From contig NZ_BBJX01000006.1 of NCBI RefSeq assembly GCF_000739995.1, positions 1 through 64,000 on the forward strand: DNA of 64,000 nt, read 5' to 3'. This document shows positions 15,897 through 16,046 of the stretch, piece after piece; position 1 is the stretch's first letter; every line of letters begins with the position of its first letter. The translations under genes were made by a program, and so were the position numbers. The DNA comes from Comamonas granuli NBRC 101663 (lineage in GTDB: Bacteria; Pseudomonadota; Gammaproteobacteria; Burkholderiales; Burkholderiaceae_C). Below the pieces are notes generated by a model. It made no database searches. It was not told the origin of the DNA and saw only the letters and a list, made by a program, of their open reading frames with translations.

Positions 15897-16019
15897 ATGT
15901 TCAAGAAGATCCTGATTGCCAACCGCGGCGAAAACGGTTGCGCAGCAGCCGTTTCAACAAATTGCCTGGCACGCGCAGCGTGCGCAGGCGATCTCGCCGC
16001 TGGAGGGCGCCATGTTTAA
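15897..16019 (+). CDS. 40-codon leader ORF made by duplicated liuD start
   Basis: The upstream copy of the liuD start opens a frame that repeats the first 12 residues of LiuD (MFKKILIANRGE). It then runs through the hairpin spacer and stops with TAA at 16017-16019, inside codons 2-3 of the true liuD gene in another frame. It has its own plausible ribosome-binding site (GGAGA, 15883-15887). It could be a decayed duplication, or it could couple translation of liuD to liuC by termination and re-initiation. Whether the peptide is made is unknown. Confidence 0.5.
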   Translation: MFKKILIANRGENGCAAAVSTNCLARAACAGDLAAGGRHV

Positions 16020-16046
16020 AAAGATCCTGATTGCCAACCGCGGCGA
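15897..16046 (+). repeat. 35-bp direct duplication of the liuD 5' end
   Basis: Bases 15897-15931 and 16012-16046 match at 33 of 35 positions. Both copies begin with ATG and encode MFKKILIANRG plus the start of the next codon; the two differences are synonymous. The 80 bp between them contain two clear hairpins: 15932-15954 (AAACGGTTGC/GCAGCCGTTT, one G-U pair) and 15969-15983 (GCACGC/GCGTGC). Confidence 0.9.

Follow-up and report, generated by a model that had tools for sequence, protein, structure and literature searches.

A candidate self-derived translational leader at liuD of Comamonas granuli and at related carboxylase genes

In the 64,000-nucleotide (nt) window analyzed here, from contig NZ_BBJX01000006.1 of Comamonas granuli NBRC 101663 (contig C29 of genome G000 in our numbering, + strand), the start of liuD, the gene for the biotin subunit of methylcrotonyl-CoA carboxylase (MCC), is present twice. 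Between the two copies lie two predicted hairpins and a short antisense arm that is the reverse complement of liuD codons. This unit, defined as a gene-start copy, two hairpins, an arm, a ribosome-binding site (RBS), and the gene start, recurs before biotin-carboxylase genes in other genomes, with an arm that covaries with the host gene and a small upstream open reading frame (uORF) that stays stop-free and usually ends at or shortly before the gene's ATG; all of this can be observed at the sequence level. A tentative reading, to which we give slightly less than an even chance, is that the element is a heritable, cis-acting, self-derived translational leader that would make translation of the gene depend on the uORF. 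Inhibition by the arm, restart of ribosomes, and any regulation are the parts of that reading that we infer.

Anatomy of the liuD leader

The original prediction described a 35-bp liuD start duplicated at a distance of 115 bp, RBSs before both copies, an upstream frame ending within the liuD start region, and two strong stem-loops in the spacer. Each of these was found again, the stem-loops by structure prediction. The first 35 nt of liuD occur with starts at 15897 and 16012 (spacing, 115 nt; 33/35 identical), as part of a 46-nt direct repeat (15896 to 15941 and 16011 to 16056, 87% identity). GGAG precedes each start, and the upstream ATG at 15897 opens a 40-codon frame whose TAA at 16017 to 16019 overlaps the liuD start (ATG 16012). 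The features of the leader are as follows.

15884 to 15887, + strand: GGAG, an RBS-like motif before the upstream copy, presumed to be the old liuD RBS (sequence)
15897 to 16019, + strand: uORF, 40 codons plus TAA, with its stop over the liuD ATG (sequence; homologous frame stop-free in 87/88 units)
15897 to 15931, + strand: upstream copy of the gene start, 33/35 nt as in 16012 to 16046 (sequence)
15932 to 15954, + strand: hairpin 1, GCA loop within GCGCAGC (predicted stem-loop)
15961 to 15992, + strand: hairpin 2, GCA loop within GCGCAGC, with compensatory changes in the distal stem among relatives (prediction and covariation)
15984 to 16000, + strand: antisense arm, exact reverse complement of liuD 16040 to 16056 (inverted repeat and covariation)
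16002 to 16005, + strand: GGAG, RBS-like, of the gene copy, right after the arm (sequence)
16040 to 16056, + strand: liuD codons pairing with the arm (inverted repeat and predicted fold)

The arm, a perfect 17-nt inverted repeat of liuD, was missed by the original prediction and is a more telling feature than the two stem-loops. RNA folding of positions 15882 to 16070 gave −87.1 kcal/mol, compared to −65.8 ± 4.2 in 200 shuffles (z = −5.0), and the predicted minimum-energy fold contains all 17 arm-liuD pairs, enclosing the RBS and ATG, which lie partly in small inner stems. Both window strands were scanned for an inverted arm that matches what follows a duplicated loop; this returned one match, and three shuffled copies (one strand each) returned none.

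Recurrence before carboxylase genes

A covariance model of the unit (R1, built from 10 copies) was used to follow the element through genus, family, order, and class. At E values up to 0.001, 15/26 genomes of the genus matched, six of these at liuD; most weak rows of this search were chance-like, and one, an accC gene (L170 in G014), was real. At E values up to 0.01, and with search filters that lose weak matches, 85/299 genomes of the family matched. All 74 of these that were read bear the unit before a biotin-carboxylase gene with a duplicated start, and the remaining 11 comprise one false match (G331) and ten unread genomes (G028, G050, G137, G202, G213, G302, G324, G329, G341, and G348). 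The order search matched 19/300 genomes, 3 from the same family and 16 from others; 15 of these 16, spread over eight other families, have both starts, and the other, G444 (L257), is false. The only match among 274 genomes of the class was the C. granuli genome itself.

A strain-unique duplication is ruled out by this recurrence across family and order genomes. The earlier suggestion of a recent duplication remnant finds no support as it was worded, given the many genera, the eight other families, a paralogue in the same genome, and the compensatory changes. The conservation check proposed with it found the unit in the 74 family genomes and the eight other families, yet in one close relative (G003) liuD lacks the element. 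In sum, what had been observed is confirmed, its interpretation is partly supported, and its scope is much wider than was predicted.

An exact 26-nt core of the element was found in 36 stretches of named species-level genomes, including Paracidovorax, Acidovorax, Variovorax, Simplicispira, Caldimonas, Ramlibacter, Xylophilus, and others, in records titled as Burkholderiales or betaproteobacteria, with one given merely as "Pseudomonadota." Every readable stretch lies upstream of a carboxylase start (L136 is cut off), which is expected because the core includes part of the carboxylase arm. Plasmid searches returned 175 records, none covering more than 80% of the query, and the matches listed fall at carboxylase or unannotated places and cover roughly half of the query. 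A 25-nt core had no exact match in viral contigs. A search of Rfam 15 returned no family at the gathering score, the best being a sub-threshold microRNA match (24.4 bits versus 59), and literature searches found no description of such a gene-start element.

The C. granuli genome encodes six such carboxylase genes, two with the element: liuD and a paralogue (C29:184491-184587). No dispersed copies are present, since both copies stand before carboxylase genes and a third place, at E 0.9, is at chance level. The accC gene of this genome (L272, contig C20) has TTGAGCCGCGAGA just 5' of its ATG, resembling the arm of a second subtype that has TGAG- or CGAG-like middle letters and is common in AccC. 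An upstream start copy was looked for at L272 and none was found (best, 15/29); the locus is possibly a decayed element.

Among 100 tabulated rows, 39 hosts were LiuD-like, 21 Pcc-like, 14 AccC, 16 other carboxylase or tandem-internal, and 10 unclassified, the last including contig-edge, false, and Alpha-E rows. In five genus genomes (G004, G012, G013, G016, and G025), Alpha-E (assigned by PF04168, tested on L162) has this architecture in front of it, and there the arm matches Alpha-E. Two of these leaders (L163 in G004 and L164 in G016) carry an extra hairpin segment with ends GCTAACAA...TTGTTATGC, which we take to resemble integron attC ends. Tandem units also occur, for example, in G126, G159, G151, G286, G109, the Alpha-E leader of G012, and Caldimonas mangrovi. 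When 1.2 Mb of G012 (about 30% of contig C1) was scanned generically, Alpha-E was returned along with repeats that look unrelated or like chance; the scan overlooked an older PCC copy within the scanned stretch and is therefore blind to old copies. The same contig has, near position 3826966, a tandem repeat containing perfect palindromes (GGATCAATTGGTTTC...CCAATTGATCC) that has no relation to the element.

Pairing of the arm, the upstream frame, and rival explanations

Units were parsed into a table of 101 after leaving out two contig-edge rows (L060 and L061) and one false, glmS-like row (L122, in G331). Leaving out 10 more (tandem-internal, Alpha-E, or with the gene start off the motif) gave 91 units in 78 genomes. 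The arm is 17 to 20 nt long and is the reverse complement of host gene codons ~9 to 15; taken as 19 nt, it matches its own gene at at least 14 positions in 72/91 units. It also follows its own gene's synonymous variants. For 57 genes encoding RGEIAC, the summed match was 981, compared to 890.6 ± 6.2 when arm-gene pairings were permuted (highest of 5,000, 918). Where the two start copies differ, the arm is Watson-Crick complementary to the gene copy rather than the upstream copy at the Gly third base in 24 cases versus 1 (2 neither), at Arg in 17 versus 2 (6 neither), and at Asn in 17 versus 1 (3 neither); in the comparison of the gene copy with the 5' arm of hairpin 2, its complementarity is to the gene copy in 134 cells versus 10.

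In 45 distinct sequences chosen for a clear arm, a choice that favors paired cells and covariation less so, the arm-gene helix and distal hairpin had 95.2% paired cells; changes affecting both sides were counted in 72 cells (shuffled, 19.8), and covariation was 0.226 (0.114 shuffled, 0/500 shuffles). One of these pairs shows all four Watson-Crick types. An alternative upstream pairing, forming a three-way junction, was rejected as the principal conserved fold, with 86.0% and 85.6% of cells paired in the two helices specific to it versus 95.1% for the arm-gene helix; overall it reached 88.6%, 49 cells, and 0.191, weaker yet above its own shuffles, partly via the shared distal hairpin.

The upstream copy retains a start codon in 89/91 units (84 ATG and 5 GTG). 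Its frame ends over the gene ATG in 60/89 and up to 60 nt before it in 25/89, with neither in 4/89, so that the geometry suited to termination-reinitiation, first suggested for liuD, is the usual one in homologues. This frame is free of stops to 20 nt before the ATG in 87/88 units, compared to 66 and 65 for the other frames (Fisher P of about 1e-6, relatedness ignored). An RBS-like motif precedes the gene start in 87/91 units and the uORF in 62/89.

Because the arm covaries with the gene, and because of the kept start codon, the stop placement, the stop-free frame, the RBS-like motif, and an excess of G.U mismatches, a translational leader is the reading we favor. The old liuD start would now drive the short uORF, and the arm, located just 5' of the new RBS, would pair with gene codons ~9 to 15 and so close a hairpin whose loop holds the RBS and ATG. 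As they translate the uORF, ribosomes would pass the arm and open the arm-gene hairpin; termination over or slightly before the gene ATG would be followed by reinitiation at that ATG, leaving translation of the gene dependent on translation of the uORF. An inert duplication remnant, already disfavored, is highly improbable: close relatives without the element would suit it, but recurrence, covariation, and the stop-free frame would not.

The uORF repeats the N terminus of the protein, and control of the gene or of enzyme assembly could lie with its peptide, nascent or released, and not with translation as such. Codons 2 to 11 look constrained as a peptide (ratio of nonsynonymous to synonymous change [Ka/Ks] of about 0.08 between upstream and gene copies, and about 0.02 among PCC orthologues versus 0.91 for the remaining frame), and the uORF is 30 to 50 codons long in 88/89 units. 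The Ka/Ks values are rough, coming from nonindependent pairs and inflated by gene conversion, and the favored reading does not depend on them. Conversion by the gene copy is seen in L181 and L258, and such conversion, or a recent past as the real start, may explain part of the constraint. Some old, distant copies have changed residues (L248, L254, and L256), and Alpha-E has an unrelated N terminus with the same design; an acting peptide is therefore improbable.

Still less probable is that the intervening sequence is skipped. Ribosomes would then hop, or the RNA would be cleaved and rejoined, from where the upstream copy finishes to the corresponding point of the gene copy, and the upstream copy would encode the real N terminus. 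The two sites are identical in sequence, and the upstream copy is constrained as a peptide, but the gene copy has its own RBS, start, and equal constraint (Ka/Ks of 0.079), and in 27/72 units the third base of the Gly codon is not the same at both sites.

A more serious rival, which we consider doubtful overall, is an element that acts at the DNA level and has no regulatory duty. The start duplication and the inverted copies would have arisen by fold-back (template-switch) synthesis, inverted-repeat correction would keep the arm matched to the gene, and the element would persist by rebuilding the gene start. It would spread when gene starts recombine homologously, or else as a small selfish element that uses its arm to recognize the uninterrupted site. 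Such an element would account for an arm that, in carboxylases as well as Alpha-E, spans the sequence at the end of the start copy, and also for the tandem units and for presence that varies between close relatives. At least one GCGNAGC occurs in 91/91 units versus 6/91 control stretches, and GNA triloops are not preferred among 223 other hairpins from the 1.2 Mb of G012. These loops favor a role of DNA because, in the available part of PMC4686876, GNA loops are described as forming extraordinarily stable DNA mini-hairpins; that stability, and the ability of template switching to create and maintain stems (the part of PMC8794818 consulted), are why this explanation is given the weight it has.

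Turnover at the site bears on the same question. The upstream copy of G004, with its adjoining 20 nt, is identical to the single start of G022 (L006 and L008), and the G004 gene copy differs. This suggests that the old start survives as the upstream copy and that the element and new start arrived as a unit, probably by homologous recombination. In seven of eight PCC orthologues compared (L260 left out), the upstream copy was often the least conserved DNA segment (identity, 0.76 to 0.97; element, 0.88 to 0.99). At liuD, G001 has a single start, as does G003, and since G003 lacks the element despite its 96% identity over window positions 15700 to 15931, turnover of presence there appears fast.

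Set against a DNA-level element are the stop-free frame and stop placement, the restriction in the C. granuli genome to two copies before carboxylases, and the excess of G.U over A.C among transition-type mismatches of the arm-gene duplex (29 versus 11, P = 0.006), a modest argument for RNA pairing. No partner gene was found when Y1_Tnp was examined in 26 genus genomes. In this search, confined to Y1_Tnp, such genes occurred in 22/26 genomes, carriers and noncarriers alike, and a Y1 transposase was rejected as partner because its presence fails to separate carriers. A ~250-amino-acid Y1_Tnp (RAYT-like) frame is at G000:C34:55302-55625, with similar frames in most genus genomes.

Several observations weigh against the translational leader. 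The 91 units are related sequences whose counts are not independent, and the sister genome G003, compared over window positions 15700 to 15931, does without the element and has a single liuD start. The arm-gene duplexes hold 53 further mismatches of other kinds, and counted by distinct position and type, G.U exceeds A.C by only 13 to 6. The universal GCGNAGC loops point toward DNA. The arm ends at least 21 nt from the ATG in 9/72 measured units, and the arm-gene loop of Alpha-E is 61 nt; because the arm pairs far from the RBS in Alpha-E and in some carboxylases, RBS masking is not general.

A broader proposal, which we rate as rather unlikely, is a new class of self-derived gene-start elements, in which a start is repeatedly duplicated around DNA mini-hairpins and an arm complementary to the gene's uninterrupted start, the unit passing between species, appearing in unrelated genes, and having its arm kept matched to each host. 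Were it true, it would be a cis-element installable at a gene start without breaking the gene. Translation control, if real, would amount to a recipe for making a gene reliant on a duplicate of its own start, one that is found ahead of carboxylases from several pathways and that Rfam lacks; a DNA-level element would be a self-derived insertion whose inverted arm tracks synonymous changes of its host gene across a bacterial order.

The ermC and cat translational attenuation leaders also have a uORF and a hairpin around the gene start. We know of no such leader that copies its gene's start or tracks its codons, and we know of no inducer for the liuD leader. Miniature inverted-repeat transposable elements, repetitive extragenic palindromic sequences, and Rickettsia palindromic elements are, like the unit here, short, hairpin-rich, and located within gene regions; the liuD-type unit differs in that it is not dispersed in its own genome, rebuilds the gene start, and carries an arm fitted to its host gene. 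Among measured cases seen, the closest analogy is uPPE2-PPE2 of M. tuberculosis, in which PPE2 expression was uORF-dependent by experiment, with an AUGA overlap (available part of PMC11260477). Both have a short upstream frame with overlapping stop and start, but the same part of that report mentions no own-start copy or gene-matched antisense arm. Hairpins made by template switching (PMC8794818) and coding palindromes of Nematomorpha mitochondria (PMC6649704), as far as the available parts of those sources describe them, share inverted copies of nearby or coding sequence that are kept perfect; in the liuD-type unit these are combined with a second copy of the gene start, an RBS, and a short reading frame, and the unit recurs at the same genes across an order.

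Gene context of liuD

In the window, liuD lies in a leucine/isovalerate-type gene cluster.

12952 to 14559: carboxyltransferase-like member of the cluster
14588 to 15097: frame without an NCBIfam match
15094 to 15876: enoyl-CoA hydratase, cluster member
16012 to 18051, + strand: liuD, MCC biotin subunit (PF00289, PF02786, PF02785, PF21139, and PF00364; Pfam)
ending at 19943: HMG-CoA lyase, cluster member

The liuD product is the MCC alpha subunit by Pfam, with PF21139 and PF00289 above cutoff; the biotin carboxylase, BT_MCC_alpha, and biotinyl domains of a LiuD are all present with Pfam scores over their cutoffs, and none of the NCBIfam models scored above cutoff against this product. Further downstream, an MFS transporter (PF00083; 21533 to 23266, + strand) has a long hydrophilic insert, spotted by eye in its translation.
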